The notes under the pieces are model-generated. The model made no database searches. It saw only the letters and a program-made list of their open reading frames with translations, and was not told the origin of the DNA. A DNA stretch of 44,553 nt from Candidatus Ornithoclostridium excrementipullorum (GTDB lineage Bacteria; Bacillota; Clostridia; Christensenellales; UBA3700), in assembly GCA_018716085.1 (NCBI GenBank), contig DVKK01000043.1:1-44553 (forward strand). The letters run 5' to 3'. The translations under genes and the position numbers were made by a program. Shown here piece after piece: positions 20,069 to 29,072 of the stretch; the first letter of the stretch is position 1; every line of letters begins with the position of its first letter.

Positions 20069-20101
20069 CGGTTTTGAGGCTTGCCGCCTTTCGGGAGGAA
20101 A

Positions 20102-22237
20102 ATGAGAAACAGGAGATTTCCGCTTTTGCTCGCCGCATTTGCGGTATTTTTATTCGGTTTTGCAACGGCTTCGTGTTCCGTGCCCTCGGCAACGGTATAT
20201 TTTTCGGCGGACGGACAGATCGTCGCCGAAGCTGAAGTGACCGAAACGAGCGGACTCGAGCTCTTCGAGCCCGAGACCGACGACGGCCGTTACTTCGTCG
20301 GTTGGTATGCGGACGAAGCCTTTACCGAGCCTTTCGATTATCACCGATATATCGTGAACGATTTTCCCGAAGACGTCGTTATCTACGCTCTGTTCGTCGA
20401 CGGCGATCCCGACGTCTGCGCGCACGAGCTTCGGCACATCGAGGGCAAAGCTCCCTCTTGCGTGGAAGCGGGCAGCGCGGAATACTGGCACTGCGCGCTG
20501 TGCGGCAAGAATTTCGCGACCGAAGATTGCCTGACGGAGATAGATACAGTAATTCTCGCTCCGACGGGGCACGATCTCGTTTTCGTCCCCGAAAAAGACG
20601 CCTCCTGCACGGAGGGAGGCAATGCTCAGCACTGGTTTTGTCCGTCCTGCGGAAAATATTTCCTCGACGAAGACGCAACGACCGAGACCGACGACCCGGG
20701 CATTCCCGCGCTGTCGCATCTGCCCGTGTACGTTGCCGAAGTATCTCCCGCCTGCGACGAAGACGGTACCGCGGAGCATTGGAAATGCGCACGATGCGCT
20801 TTGACGTTCTCCGACGCGTCGTGTATGACTCCCGTCAAAGACGGCGATCTCGTAATCCCCGCGCCCGGGCACTCTTTCGGCGAGCGCACGATAAGCTCCG
20901 CCCCCGACGAAACTTCCGCCGGGAAAGTCGTTTCCGTCTGCTCCGCCTGCGGCGACGCGCGCACGGAGACCGTTCCCGCCCTTTCAGACCGCGACTTCTA
21001 TTCGGTATCCGAAACTCCCTCTTCATGCTCCGAGCACGGATACAGGATCTATTCGTTCGTATTGGACGGCGAGGCTTTGTATGTGAGAGAGCCTCTGCCT
21101 CTTGCCGATCACGTGCCCGCCGCGCCGAGCGGAGCTTTCGATAATTCCTGCACGGAAAACGGTTACACGGGCGACGTTTTGTGCGAAGTATGCGGCGCCA
21201 TGCTGTCGGAAGGCGTGACCGTCCCTGCAAAGGGACATTCTTACGACGACGGCGTCGTCACCGTAAAGCCCTCCTGCGAACATAAGGGCGAATGCGTGTT
21301 TACCTGCTCCGAATGCGGCGATACGGACGTGCGCGAGCTTGCGCCGCTGCCGCATTCGCTCGAATACTTTTCCGAGTTGCTCCCGACCTGCACGCAGGAC
21401 GGACATACAGCCTACAACAGATGCTCGGACTGCGGAAAATATTTCGCCGAAGACGGGCGGAGCGAATTGACCGAAGACGACTTGATCGTGTCCGCATACG
21501 GTCACGACCTTGACGACAACGGCGTTTGTTCGCGCTGCGGCAAGCTCTTTACCGTAGGGCTCGTTTACGAACTTCGCGGGAACGGCTATTACGCGGTCGG
21601 AGCGGAATTGCCGCAGGGTACGACCGAGATCGTCGTACCCGAAACATACGAAGGCCTGCCCGTCATCGGGATAGCCTCGTATGCGTTTGCTAATTACGCC
21701 GACGTCGCTTCGATCACGATACCCGACAGCGTGGCAGAGATCGGGGACGACGCTTTCGCTGGCTGCGACGGCGTGACGGCGCTCACCGTGCCGTTCGTCG
21801 GGAACACCCGCGACGACGAAGAGTTCTCGATCGGAAGCTGGTTCGGCGTCGGATCGAGCAATGCGTCGCTGCCCCTGACGTCCGTAACGCTGACGTCCGC
21901 GACGAGGATACCCTCGGGAGCTTTTTCGCAATGTATAAACCTGTCTTCCGTCGATCTCAACGCGGGAGTGACGCATATCGGCGATATGGCTTTCTTTGCC
22001 TGCATATCCCTGACGTCGGTCACTCTGCCGGACGGCGTGATCGGTATAGGCTCGCAGGCGTTCCGTCAATGCGTCTCGCTGTCAGCGTTAAGGCTGCCGC
22101 AGTCCGCCGAGGAGATAGGCTCGGACGCCTTTGCGTCCGTATCCGACTCGTTATCCGTGACCTTTGCGGGAAGCGAAGTGCAATGGGAAGCCCTGGCAGA
22201 GCATTTCGGCGACAACGTGACCGTGATATACGAATAA
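20102..22237 (+). CDS. Lipoprotein with CxxC zinc-ribbon-like repeats and BspA-type leucine-rich repeats
   Basis: The 711-residue surface protein has a signal peptide ending at a lipobox (FATASC, Cys about 25). A short Listeria-Bacteroides (InlB B-like) module follows at residues about 35-95 (GRYFVGWYADEAFTEPF). Next come about eight or nine tandem repeats of 35-50 residues, built around a Cys-x-E/D-x-G turn, a CxxCGK/D pair and a closing GH (residues about 100-475). One repeat has lost its CxxC pair. The rest is a BspA-type LRR domain (TIPDSVAEIGDDAFAGC, VTLPDGVIGIGSQAF). Such proteins are usually adhesins, and the repeat pattern could bind zinc. GGGAGG lies close to the ATG (spacing about 4), and the longer frame from 20081 was not used. 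Confidence 0.88.
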   Translation: MRNRRFPLLLAAFAVFLFGFATASCSVPSATVYFSADGQIVAEAEVTETSGLELFEPETDDGRYFVGWYADEAFTEPFDYHRYIVNDFPEDVVIYALFVDGDPDVCAHELRHIEGKAPSCVEAGSAEYWHCALCGKNFATEDCLTEIDTVILAPTGHDLVFVPEKDASCTEGGNAQHWFCPSCGKYFLDEDATTETDDPGIPALSHLPVYVAEVSPACDEDGTAEHWKCARCALTFSDASCMTPVKDGDLVIPAPGHSFGERTISSAPDETSAGKVVSVCSACGDARTETVPALSDRDFYSVSETPSSCSEHGYRIYSFVLDGEALYVREPLPLADHVPAAPSGAFDNSCTENGYTGDVLCEVCGAMLSEGVTVPAKGHSYDDGVVTVKPSCEHKGECVFTCSECGDTDVRELAPLPHSLEYFSELLPTCTQDGHTAYNRCSDCGKYFAEDGRSELTEDDLIVSAYGHDLDDNGVCSRCGKLFTVGLVYELRGNGYYAVGAELPQGTTEIVVPETYEGLPVIGIASYAFANYADVASITIPDSVAEIGDDAFAGCDGVTALTVPFVGNTRDDEEFSIGSWFGVGSSNASLPLTSVTLTSATRIPSGAFSQCINLSSVDLNAGVTHIGDMAFFACISLTSVTLPDGVIGIGSQAFRQCVSLSALRLPQSAEEIGSDAFASVSDSLSVTFAGSEVQWEALAEHFGDNVTVIYE

Positions 22238-22253
22238 CGTAAACGCACCGTGC

Positions 22254-22280
22254 AAAAAAGCGGAGGACTTACCCTCCGCT
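22254..22280 (-). terminator. Rho-independent terminator of the ABC/ECF operon
   Basis: AGCGGAGG / CCTCCGCT (22259-22280) with a 6-base loop is followed on the minus strand by TTTTTT (22259-22254). It lies between the convergent lipoprotein and ECF ATPase genes. Confidence 0.85.
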
Positions 22281-22301: not shown

Positions 22302-23744
22302 CTACTCCCGCTCGGGATTTTCACCTATACCGAAGTATCTCTCGGTAAGCTCTCTCCCGCCCGTTTCGGCGGCGACTCCGTCCTTGATAAGCACGGCCTT
22401 ATCGCACAGCGCGGCGGCGCAGCGCAGGTCGTGCGTAACGCATATGAGCGTACCTCCGCTCTCCCTGTGCCACGCGTTTATGTTGGAAACGAGTTTTTTC
22501 AGATTGCGGTAATCCTGACCTACGGTCGGTTCGTCGAGAATGAGGACCTCCGGTTGCGTGGCAAGCACCGCCGCCACGGAAACTCTTCTCTTCTGTCCTT
22601 CGCTCAGCGATTGCGGATGTCTGTCCATTATATCGGTCAGCTCGAACTTTTCCGCTATCTTTTCCGCTGTCGCCGGGTCTTTCGCGCCGAACGCTATCTC
22701 TTTGCGCACCGTCGGCATAAACAGCTGATAGTTCGGATTCTGGTAGACGACGCCCACCTTCCCGAACCACTTTCTGCCCGCCCTTCCCGAGCCGAATCCT
22801 TTTCCTAGATACTGATCTATCCTGCCCGACGACGGTCGTATGAGCCGCGCTATAAGCCTCATCAAAGTCGTCTTGCCGCAGCCGTTTTCGCCGAGAAGCA
22901 AGACCCTCTCACCTCTGCGGATATCGAAACTTACGCTTTTGAGTATGTCCCTCCCGGACAGACGTCGTCCGACCTCGCGCAGGGCAAAAACGACGTCGCC
23001 CAAGACCGCGCCCGCCTCGTGATCGTCGCTTATGCTCGCCGCCTGCGCGCGCAGGTAGCTATCCGTATCGGAGATCTCGTTGATCTTGCCGCCGTCTATC
23101 GCAAATACTCTGTCCACATAGTCGAGGACCATATCCAGACGGTGTTCGACCACAAGGACGGCGTAACCGCTTTTCGCAAGCGATCTCAACGCGCCCATAA
23201 GCAGACGGGTACCGGCTTTGTCAAGATTGGCGAGCGGCTCGTCCAATATCATTATTTTCTGTCCCATGGCAAGCGTAGCCGCTGTGATGAGCCTCTGTTT
23301 CTGTCCTCCCGAAAGCGTTTTCGTGCTCCACGTCTTGTCGAGTTTCAGCGCGCGGCAGGCGTTGTCGATCGCCGCGGCGGTATCCTCGGGGCTTTTGGCG
23401 AGATTTTCGCATCCGAACGCTATCTCGTCCTCGACTTTGTCCTGTATTATCTGATTTTCCGCATTTTGAAGCACGACTCCGACCTTGCGCGAAAGCACGC
23501 TCATCGGCATCCCCGCTATGTCCTTACCGTCCACCTTGACGACGCCCGAGAGAGTACCCTGCGCGACGTTGGGGATTATGCCGCAAAACAGCGACAATAC
23601 GGTGGATTTGCCGCTGCCCGAATATCCCGAAAGCAACGTCACTTCGCCGTAATTTACCGCGAGGTCGGCATTGTCGAGCACGGGCACGGGATTGCCGTCG
23701 TATGCGAAGGATACGCGTTTGAGTTCCAAAGCCGTTCTGTTCAT
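22302..23744 (-). CDS. ECF transporter ATPase, two fused nucleotide-binding domains
   Basis: This 480-residue protein contains both energy-coupling-factor ATPase domains in one chain. Domain 1 has Walker A GYSGSGKST, signature LSGGQKQR and Walker B IMILDEPLANLD. Domain 2 has GENGCGKTT, LSEGQKRR and VLILDEPTVGQD. Both sites look catalytically complete. It powers substrate uptake together with the T and S components encoded just upstream. The start MNRTALELK is chosen because its ATG overlaps the ecfT stop as ATGA and follows a GGTGG site. The frame is open to 23804 only because it runs into ecfT. It is the last gene of the six-gene operon. Confidence 0.93.
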   Translation of the reverse strand: MNRTALELKRVSFAYDGNPVPVLDNADLAVNYGEVTLLSGYSGSGKSTVLSLFCGIIPNVAQGTLSGVVKVDGKDIAGMPMSVLSRKVGVVLQNAENQIIQDKVEDEIAFGCENLAKSPEDTAAAIDNACRALKLDKTWSTKTLSGGQKQRLITAATLAMGQKIMILDEPLANLDKAGTRLLMGALRSLAKSGYAVLVVEHRLDMVLDYVDRVFAIDGGKINEISDTDSYLRAQAASISDDHEAGAVLGDVVFALREVGRRLSGRDILKSVSFDIRRGERVLLLGENGCGKTTLMRLIARLIRPSSGRIDQYLGKGFGSGRAGRKWFGKVGVVYQNPNYQLFMPTVRKEIAFGAKDPATAEKIAEKFELTDIMDRHPQSLSEGQKRRVSVAAVLATQPEVLILDEPTVGQDYRNLKKLVSNINAWHRESGGTLICVTHDLRCAAALCDKAVLIKDGVAAETGGRELTERYFGIGENPERE

Positions 23745-24418
23745 ATCGCCACCGCCAGAGCCGCGAGCGCGATCGAGATCGCTATATATACGGCGTCTTT
23801 CCATTGAAATTTTACCGGTTTATAGATCGTATACCGAGCCTTTTTCGTGGTAAAGCCCCTCGTTTCCACGCTCAGCGCGAGCGTATCCGATATATTGACC
23901 AATCTCATGACGAACGGCACCATGAACGCGCGGTAGAATATTTTGGGATTCACAGGCGATCCCGCGCCGCGCGTGCGCATCGCCTCCCTCACCTGCCGGA
24001 CTTCCTTTGCGAGCAAAGGAAAAAACGACAGCGCTATCATCATGCCGAGGGTTATCGCCCGCGGCACGCGAAGCTGCGACAGATTGCGCATGAGCTTTAC
24101 CGGCGCGAGCCCAAGCCCGGGTATGACCGCGGCGCATACCGACAAGATGCGGCTTACCATTGCCAGCGCGAGATCGGAATTGTCCGAAAAAGCATATGTA
24201 AGCCCCCCGAACAGCGCGGTAAAGGCCGCCGCAACGGGAAGCACCGCAAGGCACGCCTTCCAATAACCGAAGCAAAGCAACAACAGCCACGTGGCTCCCG
24301 CATAGACGAACGAATTGACCGTCTTGGCGGTGACCATGCCCACGATCAGCACTACCAGAGAGGCGAGAACTCCCGCTACGGGATATATCGGATTTTTGAC
24401 TTGCAGCCGTTCGCTCAC
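23741..24418 (-). CDS. ecfT: ECF transporter transmembrane component EcfT (CbiQ family)
   Basis: The 225-residue membrane protein has about five or six hydrophobic segments. It carries the two short Arg-Gly motifs of EcfT coupling helices, AMRTRGAG and SVETRGFT, which dock onto the ATPases. Its role is to couple ATP hydrolysis to movement of the substrate-binding S component. It overlaps the S-component gene upstream and the ATPase gene downstream by 4 bp each, so the three are translated as a set. The protein is slightly shorter than housekeeping EcfT proteins of vitamin transporters (about 260 residues), as expected for a dedicated system. Confidence 0.9.
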   Translation of the reverse strand: MSERLQVKNPIYPVAGVLASLVVLIVGMVTAKTVNSFVYAGATWLLLLCFGYWKACLAVLPVAAAFTALFGGLTYAFSDNSDLALAMVSRILSVCAAVIPGLGLAPVKLMRNLSQLRVPRAITLGMMIALSFFPLLAKEVRQVREAMRTRGAGSPVNPKIFYRAFMVPFVMRLVNISDTLALSVETRGFTTKKARYTIYKPVKFQWKDAVYIAISIALAALAVAI

Positions 24419-25179
24419 TTTTTCAGCACTCCCGATTTTTTGAGTTCACGCGCGATCTTCAGCCCTATCAACGCTCCTATGAACGCTATCGCGACCGCGG
24501 CAAGACTTACGCCGACCGCGACCCACGGATGTTCGATCGCGGCAAGTCTGTAAACCGACTCGGACCCGAAGATCATAATGTGCCCGAGATATACCGGGAT
24601 GCTGACGGGAATGAACAGCGCCGCCCCGAGATAGCATGCGAGGTCTTTCCCGTATCCCCTGAATATCGCAAATATCAGGACCTCGACTATGATGCCGCTT
24701 ATGAGATTGGTTATGAACATCTCCTGCGCCATAAAGAGCAAAAACACGCCCGTGAAGATCGACATGAGGAACAGAGAGCCCGTCTTGCGCACCTTCATCA
24801 GCCCTATCGCGGGGAAAACCGAGAATTGCAGCGCCGTGACCACCTGCGCTATCCCGAATACGGGCACCTGCGACACGAAGACCATGACCGCGCTTGTCAG
24901 CAGCATGGCAGCGGATATCACGGCGAGGAACACTATATCCTTGACCTTCCAGTCAAAATACTTTTCCCAAAACCTGCCCGCCGCGCTCTTTTTGCGTACG
25001 GTGGTATCGATATTTTCGTCTTCGCCGTCGCCGCCGATCCCGGCGTTCTCCGCGTCTTTCGGCGCGTCGGATATGTCTTTTGCCTCTTCTTCGGTTTTTT
25101 CGGCAGACTGCGCCGAGCCCGCCACGGAAGCGAGCAGATCGCTCTCCTCTCCGAAACTTCTATCCTTTTCTTCGTTCAT
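24415..25179 (-). CDS. ECF transporter S component, MptD / Trep_Strep family
   Basis: This is predicted to be the substrate-binding membrane subunit of the ECF importer. The 254 residues begin with an unusual acidic cytosolic tail of about 75 residues (many Glu/Asp, EKTEEEAKDISDAPKDAENA). About six membrane segments follow from residue 80 (VKDIVFLAVISAAMLL, VYLGHIMIFGSESVY). The later pattern fits the MptD (Trep_Strep) family, whose substrate is not firmly known. The start overlaps the end of the upstream ABC gene by 20 bp. Confidence is high for an ECF S component and moderate for the family. The acidic tail is not part of the core fold. Confidence 0.82.
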   Translation of the reverse strand: MNEEKDRSFGEESDLLASVAGSAQSAEKTEEEAKDISDAPKDAENAGIGGDGEDENIDTTVRKKSAAGRFWEKYFDWKVKDIVFLAVISAAMLLTSAVMVFVSQVPVFGIAQVVTALQFSVFPAIGLMKVRKTGSLFLMSIFTGVFLLFMAQEMFITNLISGIIVEVLIFAIFRGYGKDLACYLGAALFIPVSIPVYLGHIMIFGSESVYRLAAIEHPWVAVGVSLAAVAIAFIGALIGLKIARELKKSGVLKK

Positions 25180-26857
25180 CGGTCATGACTCCTTTTTCTA
25201 TTTTGTAAACTCTGTCCGCGATCGCCATAGTGGACTCGCGGTGTGATACCAGTATTATCGCTTTGTCGCTGCGGCAGTCCTTGAGCGCTTTGAGGATAAT
25301 CCCCTCGTTGATACTGTCCACGTTGCTTGTGGGCTCGTCGAGAAGTATAAGTCTGCCGTCGTGCAAAAACGCCCGCGCAAGCCCTATCCTCTGCTTCTCT
25401 CCCGCGGAAAGATTGTCGCCCAAAGCTCCTACCTTCGTGTCGTAGCCGTCGGGCAGAGATTCTATGAACTCGTGCACGGAAGCCTTGCGGCATGCCTCTT
25501 TCAGTTCTTCGTCCGTCGCGTCGTATTTCGCTATGCGCAGGTTGTCGGCGATGCTCTCGTCGAAAAGATAAGTGCTCTGCGACACCATGGCTACGTTGTC
25601 GGTAAGGCTGTCGCTGTTGATACGGTCCACGTCCGTGCCGTCGTATTCTATCGAGCCGGAATCCTTTTCCCAAAATCTCATCAACAGTTTGAGCAGGGTG
25701 GATTTTCCGCAACCGCTCGCGCCTACGATACCCACGATCTCACCCGCTTCGGCGTGCATACATACTTCGTTCAGCACGCGCTTGTCCCGTTCGTAACTGA
25801 AGCACAGATCCTTGGTTTCGACGCGGTGGAAATCCATGTCCGTGCCGTCCGTTACGGGTTCGACGGCAGGCTTTTCGGCAAGAAGTTTCAGAACTCTGTC
25901 GCCGCTGGCGAACGTCTGCGTAAGATTGCCCGGCAGAGCGGATATCGCTATGACGGGTCCGAACGATCCGAACACCGCAACGACTCCTATTATCATCTTT
26001 CCTATGCTCAAAGCTCCGGCGGAAACTAAAACTATGCCCACGATCAAAGTGAGTATTATGAACACGGATACGAAAATTTCGGTAATCCCCGCCGCCGTCG
26101 CCGTCTTGCGTTTTATCTTCTTGGTATAGTCCAGAAGCACGTCGCTCCTGCGGTCCACCTCGGCAAGTCTTTCCTTTTCGGCGTTATTGAGGACTATGTC
26201 TTTCACGCCCTTTATGCTGTCGAGAAAATAAGCGTTGAACGACGAAAACTCTTTCCTGTATCCCACGCCGCCCGAACGCAGCAGCGACGACGATATCACG
26301 GGAAGGACGACTCCTATCGCGAAGTATCCGACAAGCGCCGCCAGCGCCAGATACCATGACGACGCGAATCCCACGAACAGGAACACTGCGGTCGAGACGA
26401 CCGCCGCGATACATATCGGCGATATGGTATGAGCATAGAACACTTCGAGCGTTTCTATATCGGAGGTGATCATCGCGATGATCGCGCCTTTGCGTTTGGA
26501 TTCGAGTTTCGCGGGACAGAGCACGCGCAGCGCGCCGAATATCTTGTCGCGCAGCACCGCGAGCAACCTGAACGCTATGTAATGGTTGCAATACTGTTCC
26601 GCATACCGCAGCAGGCCTCTGAGCACGCCGCAGCCCACGGCGAGACCGATTATCAGACCGTAAGACATGGCGATCTGTTCGCCGAGAGCCTTCGCTATGC
26701 CTATCGCGCCGAAAAGCGTCACTCCCATCGCGCTGATAAAGCCCAGGCTGCCGTTGACGACGGCAAAGACCATGATGTAAGCGAGCGATCCCAACAGCAC
26801 GATCAGCCGCGCCATTATCTTTGCTCCGCCCGCTCTTTCCGCATTATTCTTTTTCAT
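25160..26857 (-). CDS. ABC transporter, fused permease and ATPase (CydC-like half)
   Basis: This is a 565-residue half-transporter of the type I exporter fold. Six membrane helices span residues about 15-300, followed by an ATPase domain with Walker A GASGCGKST, signature LSAGEKQR and Walker B LILLDEPTSNVD. It most likely pairs with the preceding gene product as a heterodimer, as CydC does with CydD. The ATG MKKNNAER overlaps the upstream stop by 14 bp, and the end overlaps the S-component gene by 20 bp. Adjacent half-exporters beside an ECF importer are unusual. The exported or moved substrate is not deducible. Confidence 0.9.
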   Translation of the reverse strand: MKKNNAERAGGAKIMARLIVLLGSLAYIMVFAVVNGSLGFISAMGVTLFGAIGIAKALGEQIAMSYGLIIGLAVGCGVLRGLLRYAEQYCNHYIAFRLLAVLRDKIFGALRVLCPAKLESKRKGAIIAMITSDIETLEVFYAHTISPICIAAVVSTAVFLFVGFASSWYLALAALVGYFAIGVVLPVISSSLLRSGGVGYRKEFSSFNAYFLDSIKGVKDIVLNNAEKERLAEVDRRSDVLLDYTKKIKRKTATAAGITEIFVSVFIILTLIVGIVLVSAGALSIGKMIIGVVAVFGSFGPVIAISALPGNLTQTFASGDRVLKLLAEKPAVEPVTDGTDMDFHRVETKDLCFSYERDKRVLNEVCMHAEAGEIVGIVGASGCGKSTLLKLLMRFWEKDSGSIEYDGTDVDRINSDSLTDNVAMVSQSTYLFDESIADNLRIAKYDATDEELKEACRKASVHEFIESLPDGYDTKVGALGDNLSAGEKQRIGLARAFLHDGRLILLDEPTSNVDSINEGIILKALKDCRSDKAIILVSHRESTMAIADRVYKIEKGVMTDERRKG

Positions 26858-28583
26858 TGCCTTCGCCCTCCCCGAGATAGCCCTCTTCCAGCGCTTTCTG
26901 CGTATTGTACAGCGAAGCGTAATCACCGCCGAGCGCCATCAGCTCGGCGTGCGATCCGCACTCTTTGACCTTGCCTTCCGCCATAAAATATATCTTGTCC
27001 GCCCTGACTACGTTGGCGAGCCTGTGGGATATGACTATCACGTTTTTGCTCTTCGAGAGTTTTTCCACGTTGTCCATTATCACAGCCTCGCTGTCGGCGT
27101 CGATATTGGAAGTCGCCTCGTCGAACACGTATACGTCCTTGTCCGCAACGAGATTTACCGCCAGGGCCAGCCTCTGTTTCTGCCCGCCCGAGATATTGCC
27201 TCCGTCCTCCGCGACGATCTTGTCGGGTCCGCCCTCTTCGCGTACGAACCGCGCAAGATCGACTTTTTCGAGCGCGTCGTATATCTCTTCGTCGGTAACG
27301 TCCGGCTTTGCAAGACGGAAATTGGACCTTACGCTCTCGTTGAATATATAAGTGTTGTACGACACTATCGCAAGTTTGGAATACCAGCTCGCGCGCGACG
27401 CTTTTTCTATCGGCATTCCTCCGACCTCCACGCCGCCTTCACGCGCTCTGTACGCGCCGCCGATGAGATTGACGACGGTCGACTTGCCGCAGCCGCTTTC
27501 GCCGACGATGGCTGTAAATCCCGTCCGAGGAAAAGACATCGTCACGTCTTCGAGCACGTCGCGTTTGCCGTCGTACGAGAACGTGACGCCGAGCAATTCT
27601 ATGCTCGGATCGGAAACTTCCCCGTCGCCCCACTGCGGCTCTTTCGCTTCGAGTATTTCCAATATCTTTCTTCCCGCGCTCGCTCCGTTCATCGCCACGT
27701 GGAACGCGCTGCCCAGACTGCGCAGCGGCAGGAAAAATTCCACCGCGACGAGCACGAGGAACAGCGCAGAAAACGGATCGCCGCCCTGCGTTACGCCGTA
27801 GACCGCCAGCGCAATGCCAGCGCCCGCGCCGCCATACGCGACGAGATCCATTATCGTCGTGCTTGCAAGCTGCATCACGAGCACTTTCATCGTTATCTTG
27901 CGGAATTCCTCGGCGCTCTCGTTTATCTGCGCATGCTTGCTCGCGTCGGCTTTGAATATTTTCAGCTCTTTCAGTCCTTGCACGCTGTCGAGAAAAATAT
28001 CGCCCATCGACGTATATTTGCCCCAATATTTCGCAAATATCTTCTTCGCGTATTTCGACACCGCCACGATCGACACGGGAATGAGCGGCACGCATACTAT
28101 CAGCATGACCGCCGTGCGCCAGTCCAACGGTACGCAGATCGCAAACAGAATGAACGGGGCTATCATCGAATAGAAGAACTGCGGCAGATATGTGGAATAA
28201 TACAGATCGAGCTGTTCTATCCCCTCTACGCCCACCTGCGTCATGCCCGCCATCGTGGCTTTTTCGGACGACCTTACGCCGAGTCGCAGCATCTTGTCGT
28301 AAGCGCGTGCGCGCAGGTCTTTTTTTACGTGCGCCCCGAGCGTGTTCTTGAACTCGTTGGTGAGCTTGGTGATACAGAACCTTAGCGCTATGCATACCGA
28401 CGCTATCGCGGCGGGAGCTATGTACTCCGCCGCGCCCGCGCCGTCGGCGGCGAGCCTGACGGCATAACATATACACGCCGTGATGCCGAGATTCGCGAGC
28501 AGTCCGACGATCATCGCCAAAACCGAATACGCTATATATTTACGGTTGCCGCCCAAAAGTCCGAGCAGATCTTTGTCAAGCAT
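26844..28583 (-). CDS. ABC transporter, fused permease and ATPase (CydD-like half)
   Basis: The 579-residue half-transporter has an N-terminal membrane domain of six helices (residues about 15-310). The ATPase domain has Walker A GESGCGKST, signature ISGGQKQR and Walker B VYVFDEATSNID. The start MLDKDLLGL overlaps the end of the YgbA-family gene by 8 bp. A longer in-frame start inside that gene was rejected because it would read its lysine-rich tail in the wrong frame. It forms a probable heterodimer with the next gene. Both ATPase sites keep all core motifs, so neither looks degenerate. Confidence 0.9.
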   Translation of the reverse strand: MLDKDLLGLLGGNRKYIAYSVLAMIVGLLANLGITACICYAVRLAADGAGAAEYIAPAAIASVCIALRFCITKLTNEFKNTLGAHVKKDLRARAYDKMLRLGVRSSEKATMAGMTQVGVEGIEQLDLYYSTYLPQFFYSMIAPFILFAICVPLDWRTAVMLIVCVPLIPVSIVAVSKYAKKIFAKYWGKYTSMGDIFLDSVQGLKELKIFKADASKHAQINESAEEFRKITMKVLVMQLASTTIMDLVAYGGAGAGIALAVYGVTQGGDPFSALFLVLVAVEFFLPLRSLGSAFHVAMNGASAGRKILEILEAKEPQWGDGEVSDPSIELLGVTFSYDGKRDVLEDVTMSFPRTGFTAIVGESGCGKSTVVNLIGGAYRAREGGVEVGGMPIEKASRASWYSKLAIVSYNTYIFNESVRSNFRLAKPDVTDEEIYDALEKVDLARFVREEGGPDKIVAEDGGNISGGQKQRLALAVNLVADKDVYVFDEATSNIDADSEAVIMDNVEKLSKSKNVIVISHRLANVVRADKIYFMAEGKVKECGSHAELMALGGDYASLYNTQKALEEGYLGEGEGNEKE

Positions 28584-28974
28584 CGCTATCCTCTCCTCCC
28601 GCGTCTTTTTTCGGCTCTTTCGCCTTCGCTTCGCGCGCTTTGCGCTTTTCTTCTTTCGCGTCCGCACGTTTTGTTTTCAGGGTCTCCGACAAATGCGCGA
28701 ACGCTGTTATCGGATGAGAAAACATCAGCCTCGGTCCCGAGTAACGCATCACTTCGGATATCCGCGCGCGCATATCGGGCTTGTAACAATGTATCTTGCA
28801 GTTGGAACAAAACGGCTTTTCGTCGCCGAACGGGCACCTCTCCCTGCGCTGTTCGACGTATGCCGCCAGCTCCGCGCAGTCGGAACACAGCTCTCCCTTT
28901 TTCGTCTTGTGCCTGCCTCTGCAATACATCCCGATCATCAGCCGTACGATCTCGAGATCTTTTTGCTTTTCCAT
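28576..28974 (-). CDS. YgbA_NO (nitrous oxide-stimulated promoter) family protein
   Basis: The 132-residue cytoplasmic protein has a conserved cysteine-rich core: YCRGRH, CSDCAEL, RCPFGDEKPFCSNCKIHCY and VMRYSGPRLM. The CxxC, CxxCxxxC layout suits metal or Fe-S binding. The family is named for promoters that respond to nitrogen oxides, and E. coli YgbA is in the NO-responsive NsrR regulon. Its biochemical role is poorly defined. The last 35 residues are a Lys/Glu-rich tail. It is the first gene of the ABC/ECF operon, with AGAGGTG 10 bp before the ATG, behind a promoter with two tandem operators. Placing it first suggests a sensing or accessory role for the transport system. Confidence 0.88.
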   Translation of the reverse strand: MEKQKDLEIVRLMIGMYCRGRHKTKKGELCSDCAELAAYVEQRRERCPFGDEKPFCSNCKIHCYKPDMRARISEVMRYSGPRLMFSHPITAFAHLSETLKTKRADAKEEKRKAREAKAKEPKKDAGGEDSDA

Positions 28975-28994
28975 CAGTCTGTCACCTCTATGCG

Positions 28995-29031
28995 GTTAGC
29001 GGCTGCTACCTTATGGTTAGCATACGCTAAC
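28995..29031. promoter_or_regulatory. Two tandem operators GTTAGC-N4-GCTAAC
   Basis: GTTAGC-GGCT-GCTACC (28995-29010) and GTTAGC-ATAC-GCTAAC (29016-29031) are dyads of the same form, one with a single mismatch. Their centres are 21 bp apart, two helical turns. They cover the region from the predicted transcription start to the leader of the YgbA/ABC/ECF operon, so a bound dimeric repressor (TetR-like is likely) would block transcription. No such regulator gene lies in the window. Confidence 0.75.
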
Positions 29032-29043
29032 ATTCACGCCTCA

Positions 29044-29072
29044 ATTATATAGTCTTTCAAAGAAAAACGCAA
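29044..29072 (-). promoter_or_regulatory. Promoter of the YgbA/ABC/ECF operon
   Basis: TTGCGT (29072-29067), a 17-bp spacer and a perfect TATAAT (29049-29044) lie on the minus strand. The predicted start is near 29037, immediately before the tandem operators and about 63 bp from the first ATG. Confidence 0.7.

Follow-up and report, generated by a model that had tools for sequence, protein, structure and literature searches.

A conserved operon of YgbA, a CydDC-like ABC pair and an ECF transporter as a probable part of a heme acquisition system in Candidatus Ornithoclostridium excrementipullorum

Overview

Contig DVKK01000043.1 of Candidatus Ornithoclostridium excrementipullorum, analysed here as a stretch of 44,553 nucleotides (the window), carries an operon that encodes a YgbA_NO protein, two CydDC-like half ATP-binding cassette (ABC) proteins, and the S, T and ATPase (A) components of an energy-coupling factor (ECF) transporter. 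We propose, with a probability of roughly 0.78, that this operon is the membrane and cytosolic part of an iron-repressed system for acquiring heme or another iron-porphyrin. Three features point to heme: the NEAT-domain partners, the conserved heme ligands of CydDC and an operator of the iron type. Together with the precedent of the streptococcal sia locus, these make heme the most likely substrate.

Organization and conservation of the operon

The six genes all lie on the minus strand, from 28974 (start of YgbA) to 22302 (end of the ECF ATPase), as follows.

28576 to 28974, minus strand: YgbA_NO protein, 132 amino acids, first gene; PF11756 at 137.1 bits (cut-off 25)
26844 to 28583, minus strand: ABC1, CydD-like half-ABC transporter, 579 amino acids; TIGR02857 (CydD) at 386.7 bits (cut-off 435)
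25160 to 26857, minus strand: ABC2, CydC-like half-ABC transporter, 565 amino acids; TIGR02868 (CydC) at 329.6 bits (cut-off 329.05)
24415 to 25179, minus strand: predicted ECF S-component, divergent Trep_Strep relative, 254 amino acids, with a low-confidence N-terminal tail
23741 to 24418, minus strand: ECF T-component, CbiQ family, 225 amino acids, GTG start; PF02361 at 59.5 bits (cut-off 25)
22302 to 23744, minus strand: ECF ATPase with two fused ABC domains, 480 amino acids, last gene; PF00005 twice

Consecutive genes overlap by 8, 14, 20, 4 and 4 bp in the order YgbA-ABC1-ABC2-S-T-A. The initial annotation had described a six-gene operon with every junction overlapping by 4-20 bp and had assigned its products to YgbA_NO, a CydDC-like pair and an ECF importer; the coordinates agree with the first statement, and the Pfam and NCBIfam scores and a structural model of S agree with the second.

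Gene neighbourhoods were compared in 80 loci with a YgbA relative, taken from GTDB genomes, and in 46 whole genomes of the window's GTDB family. A CydDC-like pair adjoined YgbA in 47 of the 80 loci, and S followed downstream in 25 of those. YgbA and S were both present in 31 of the family genomes, always on one contig and 3.5-4.2 kb apart; one family genome had S without YgbA, and none had YgbA without S. The nearest named loci belonged to uncultured Christensenellaceae and to Clostridia metagenome-assembled genomes (MAGs). Because it recurs in 31 family genomes and in 25 of the 80 fetched loci, the gene arrangement is far from chance. The earlier proposal that the genes form one conserved unit was thereby borne out, and they are found together well beyond this genome.

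A predicted NEAT lipoprotein as the seventh gene

Most relatives have an additional gene between YgbA and ABC1, some 170 codons long and with a lipoprotein signal; one example is L034, 8358-8891. Its domain holds a near-invariant S-x-M-G-K/Q-x-M motif and, further on, an invariant methionine; the invariant methionines of the lipoprotein are Met 69, Met 73 and Met 145. The Pfam NEAT profile matched 13 of 17 members of this lipoprotein family below its cut-off, with E-values down to 2.4e-6, and HemeBinding_Shp came second with sub-cut-off matches to five members. Searching the PDB with the lipoprotein sequence gave no real match; structure comparison alone did. With an AlphaFold 2 (AF2) model of pLDDT 82 as the query, the top 50 Foldseek hits in the PDB were all chains of NEAT proteins, the best being Shp (2q7a, E 3.9e-5). 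VIA alignment of the model gave Z 11.6 for IsdX2 NEAT5 and IsdX1, and 5.6 at the first non-NEAT protein. As far as the model goes, this settles the predicted fold as NEAT. The NEAT matches returned were heme- or hemoglobin-binding domains.

The NEAT gene stood beside YgbA in 25 of the 31 family genomes with the operon, 13-134 bp away; two others had it next to a second YgbA. The window's own genome has the lipoprotein gene on another contig, next to a second YgbA.

Locus L127 (contig C15), 1096 to 1395 and 1398 to 1898, minus strand: second YgbA_NO gene and NEAT lipoprotein gene, YgbA directly behind the NEAT gene

A copy of the operator described below lies 57 bp upstream of this unit, which looks like the seventh gene of the operon split off with a copy of YgbA; one sister genome (G002) shows the same split. 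Across the locus sample, NEAT genes occurred at 19 of the 47 YgbA loci with an ABC pair and at none of the 33 without one. Two loci without ECF genes, L044 and L049, hold YgbA, the pair, a DUF454 protein and a NEAT protein scoring 55-57 bits (Pfam cut-off 32.8).

Three longer frames (about 440-500 amino acids) matched the NEAT-lipoprotein profile in part (G024:C2:413326-413673, G005:C3:10295-10648 and G027:C13:34503-34874); these are perhaps surface hemophores of the same genomes.

Operator and boundary signals

The following sites were located at the two ends of the operon.

29044 to 29049, minus strand: -10 box TATAAT, read by eye, with a weak -35
29016 to 29031, no strand assigned: perfect palindromic operator GTTAGC-N4-GCTAAC, GTTAGCATACGCTAAC, just downstream of the -10 box
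28995 to 29010, no strand assigned: second operator copy with one mismatch, 21 bp from the perfect copy (centre to centre), from a DNA pattern search
22259 to 22280, no strand assigned: terminator hairpin common to the operon and a convergent plus-strand gene, from a hairpin scan

Neither operator copy had been noted in the initial annotation. The exact palindrome occurs six times in the 1.69-Mb genome, and all six copies are at four loci of iron type: one at this operon, two at feoA-feoA-feoB, two at an ABC pair resembling IrtAB and one at the NEAT-YgbA unit. Across 13 genomes of the genus the pattern was found 48 times, versus 2 for a reversed control, and many relatives also have two operator copies. 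A DtxR/MntR-type gene (PF01325 and PF02742; L128, 5069-5431, minus strand) lies upstream of feo, and at locus L046 a gene of this type immediately precedes YgbA. The natural reading of these sequences is that the operator would be the target of an iron- or manganese-dependent repressor of the DtxR family.

The pair that resembles IrtAB by eye, with its two operator copies, is on the plus strand of contig C57 of the same genome (L129, 5285-7078 and 7080-8792) and is likely to be another transporter of an iron compound. A small winged-helix gene (L128, 4557-4913, minus strand) stands between the DtxR/MntR gene and feoA, has an operator ahead of it and matched no Pfam family above cut-off.

The initial annotation had placed one promoter in front of the operon and one terminator behind it. 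The terminator was found: the scanner listed the hairpin on the plus strand, and on the minus strand its stem is followed by TTTTT; it is usable on both. For the promoter, the TATAAT box speaks in favour; the -35 is weak, and a consensus promoter scan called no promoter ahead of the operon. The convergent gene that shares the hairpin (20081-22237) encodes a probable lipoprotein of 718 amino acids with BspA-type leucine-rich repeats.

Heme ligands of the CydDC-like pair

Both half-ABC proteins consist of ABC_membrane and ABC_tran (Pfam), and their best profiles were CydD for ABC1 and CydC for ABC2, with ABC2 reaching the CydC equivalog cut-off and ABC1 missing that of CydD. The axial heme ligands of E. 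coli CydDC are H85 of CydC and H312 of CydD (PMC10374445). When E. coli K-12 CydC and CydD were used as the alignment reference, histidine was found at the H85 equivalent of ABC2 and at the H312 equivalent of ABC1 in the window and in 40 of 40 relatives (25 of the operon type and 15 other YgbA-pair loci). The H312 equivalent was absent from all nine control half-ABC proteins, which included the IrtAB-like pair of the same genome, and also from ABC2. R77 of CydC is retained in the window and in the operon-type relatives.

Cytochrome bd subunit I (PF01654) was found in none of 47 genomes including the window's own, which is 93.6% complete, and in 10 of 14 controls. Because these 47 genomes lack cytochrome bd, the ABC pair does not serve bd assembly. 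Ferrochelatase was likewise found in none of the 47, own genome included, while most control genomes were positive; these cells probably make no heme by the ferrochelatase route. The HutW/anaerobilin-synthase profile TIGR04107 gave sub-cut-off matches in every genome and was uninformative on heme breakdown. The window pair thus resembles E. coli CydDC in being a heterodimeric pair of half-ABC proteins that retains both axial histidines, but differs in that its genomes have no cytochrome bd, two propionate-binding arginines are replaced and ABC1 scores below the CydD cut-off.

E. coli CydDC is now shown to transport heme, in the outward direction (PMC10374445). That direction would suit an operon for protection from heme, in which the pair exports the surplus, YgbA acts as a heme sensor or buffer, and the ECF transporter provides a minor route of recovery; YgbA and the pair without ECF genes also form a stable smaller unit, seen in 22 of the 47 loci. 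However, a detoxification operon should respond to heme and not to a lack of iron, and the operator found here is common to feo and NEAT uptake genes. We consider protection quite unlikely as the role of the operon, and the certainty with which the pair had initially been called an exporter is unsupported.

The ECF transporter and its cargo

The S protein scored 24.9 bits against the NCBIfam MptD model TIGR02185, well below the cut-off of 76.45 that marks that family. Against Pfam Trep_Strep (PF09605; cut-off 28.7) it scored 27.4 bits in hmmscan and 29 in a genome search with neighbouring stretches. Canonical Trep_Strep/MptD members from other parts of the phylum score far better, with E-values of 1e-50 or lower, and hhalign of the window's S group with canonical members gave a probability of 97.5%. 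An AF2 model of S matched the solved ECF S-component 5edl with a Foldseek probability of 1.00 and a VIA Z of 15.2 (167 residues, 3.2 Å); the second-best VIA match was ThiT, at Z 9.7. Judged by this model, the S protein is an ECF S-component and a distant relative of MptD, for which "MptD-type", as it had first been labelled, is too strong. ECF_ATPase models scored best for the A protein, at 306 and 282 bits, just below their equivalog cut-offs. The features of an ECF transporter stand together in one operon: an S-component fold, a CbiQ-type T-component and two ECF-type ATPase domains. A plasmid search with the S protein gave no match.

Canonical Trep_Strep/MptD S genes in other Bacillota (L171, L172, L173 and L178) are accompanied by a T gene, a double-ATPase gene and another type of ABC pair; one ABC half was found at L173, and a probable TetR regulator stands beside some of the four loci. 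The ABC pairs of canonical MptD loci score 130-200 bits against the window pair and lack the H312 equivalent, and the cargo of these loci may differ from heme.

Such loci bear on the question of whether the window operon itself moves a different iron or metal compound (a siderophore, a metal-free porphyrin, or cobalamin or a precursor), in which case the CydDC-like pair would be a type-IV importer of the IrtAB kind. Elsewhere, T, A and an ABC pair accompany S-components that belong to the same broad family. The related mptABCDEF locus of M. avium paratuberculosis is presumed to act in iron uptake, with a cargo that is not known (PMC4132290), and any iron compound would fit an iron-type operator. 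The NEAT matches are to domains that bind heme or hemoglobin, however, and the pair keeps both axial histidine ligands of CydDC, so that we regard another cargo as unlikely.

YgbA and the nitric oxide link

Alignment of 51 relatives showed seven invariant cysteines in YgbA (C18, C30, C33, C47, C56, C59 and C63) and an invariant H22. The protein is predicted to be cytosolic, and a role with a metal, an Fe-S cluster or heme is plausible from its sequence. YgbA of E. coli aligns with it over a C-terminal motif with conserved cysteines, CxxC..HCY and an HP motif. It differs in having a shorter N-terminus and in keeping the C-terminal cluster but not all seven invariant cysteines, and its gene is solitary, between fhlA and mutS.

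E. coli ygbA belongs to the NsrR regulon (PMC5320621), and CydDC has long been described as a thiol exporter (NCBIfam names). Both would fit a redox system linked to nitric oxide (NO) or thiols, composed of a thiol exporter, an NO-responsive YgbA and an ECF importer for a redox cofactor. Against this, the operator is found at feo and NEAT genes, E. coli YgbA does not have all of the invariant cysteines, and more recent work shows that CydDC transports heme (PMC10374445). When ten YgbA-neighbour proteins at loci without an ABC pair were scanned with Pfam, they had mostly housekeeping functions, and no NO gene was among them. We find such a redox system very improbable. The initial annotation had tied YgbA to nitrogen-oxide-responsive promoters and had suggested a tetrapyrrole, a thiol or a redox cofactor as the substrate. 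The first of these ideas is unsupported: the operator is common to the feo genes, which have a DtxR-family gene beside them, and no NO-related gene was met nearby, although NO regulators were not searched for. As to the substrate, a tetrapyrrole is the best option, namely heme, on the NEAT partners, CydDC ligands and operator; thiol export is unsupported.

The same ten-protein scan met a FecCD permease near YgbA in Veillonella (L072, 8495-9502) and, in a Bacteroidaceae MAG, a TonB-dependent receptor with YgbA immediately behind it (L109, 5986-7959). These neighbours are further hints of an iron role for YgbA, which the scan itself neither supports nor excludes.

The 47 YgbA-pair loci comprise 25 with ECF genes, 18 with a DUF454 (PF04304) membrane protein, four with neither and none with both. 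The DUF454 loci, with YgbA and the pair and no ECF genes, are the following; L057 comes from a culturable bacterium, Clostridium sp. MSJ-8.

L044, L046, L049, L053, L055-L057, L059, L067, L071, L076, L080, L083, L086, L089, L097, L098 and L108

Near type 11 secretion loci of Proteobacteria, DUF454 genes cluster with heme oxygenase and TonB genes (PMC12282271). The ECF genes and DUF454 may be alternative fittings of one heme-moving core, a pattern that phylogeny could also explain. More tentatively, YgbA could possibly be a general cytosolic family for handling heme or iron (as an iron acceptor or in oxygen-free opening of heme, for example), which with the CydDC-like pair would make up a heme-moving core, completed in some loci by an ECF importer and in others by a DUF454 protein. 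If this were true, the NO response of E. coli ygbA would reflect damaged heme or iron centres.

Comparison with known heme transport loci

MtsR is a metal-dependent repressor of the DtxR family. In group A Streptococcus it controls a locus with siaD and siaE (ABC), siaF (S), siaG (T) and siaH (A), accompanied by the NEAT proteins Shr and Shp (PMC6593403). The window operon resembles this locus (shr-shp-siaABC-siaDE-siaFGH) in the order ABC pair, S, T, A and in the NEAT proteins encoded alongside; the role in heme use and the control by MtsR there would be matched by heme acquisition and putative DtxR-type control here. It differs in its YgbA, which is not reported in sia, in having no classical SiaABC, and in that the NEAT protein of its genome is a small, divergent lipoprotein.

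LhaSTA of Staphylococcus lugdunensis imports heme, and heme ECF transporters are also found in group A Streptococcus and L. sakei (PMC7299338); heme ECF transporters are known, and the initial interpretation is out of date on this point. Heme S-components share very little sequence similarity (PMC7299338). LhaSTA is likewise a set of ECF S, T and A proteins under iron control, but neither a CydDC-like pair nor YgbA is described for it. MptABCDEF of M. avium paratuberculosis combines ABC transporters and ECF-type genes in one locus (PMC4132290), and the window's S protein is a distant homologue of canonical MptD members. By analogy, the operon would best be called a new variant of the streptococcal sia-like heme locus, one that includes YgbA and whose NEAT protein is a small lipoprotein of another kind.

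Proposed mechanism

Under low iron, a repressor that is probably of the DtxR family would leave the paired palindromes ahead of the operon. The NEAT lipoprotein, supplied here from the separate locus beside the second YgbA and, in most relatives, by the operon itself, would capture surface heme and hand it over to the S-component, the likely order of the relay, and the T and double-ATPase proteins would power import. Within the membrane, the two histidines of the CydDC-like pair would hold heme for transport, and the pair would serve either as a further importer or to send surplus heme or porphyrin, possibly stripped of iron, back out. In the cytosol, YgbA with its seven invariant cysteines would handle the incoming heme or heme iron.

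Several observations weigh against heme acquisition. In this genome the NEAT gene lies outside the window, and in four family genomes the operon has no strong NEAT match next to it. Histidine occupies the H85 column in five of the nine control ABC halves, so that only H312 discriminates and the H85 match taken alone would be weak evidence; moreover, two CydC arginines that bind the heme propionates, R81 and R136, are replaced in the window by glutamine and histidine. Heme export by E. coli CydDC (PMC10374445) fits oddly with an operon for iron starvation. The co-occurrence counts come from related genomes that are not phylogenetically independent, and show stable linkage rather than independent events. 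The likeness to sia and LhaSTA is drawn from gene make-up and published descriptions.

Significance

Gut anaerobes that have neither ferrochelatase nor a bd oxidase seem to devote resources to capturing heme, most simply as a source of iron. The operon points to an unannotated family of NEAT lipoproteins, suggests a cargo for a divergent group of S-components, and suggests that heme transport by CydDC-like pairs is not confined to the assembly of cytochrome bd. It would also tie the orphan YgbA, known mainly as an NO-induced enterobacterial gene, to heme, and so gives this protein a testable role.

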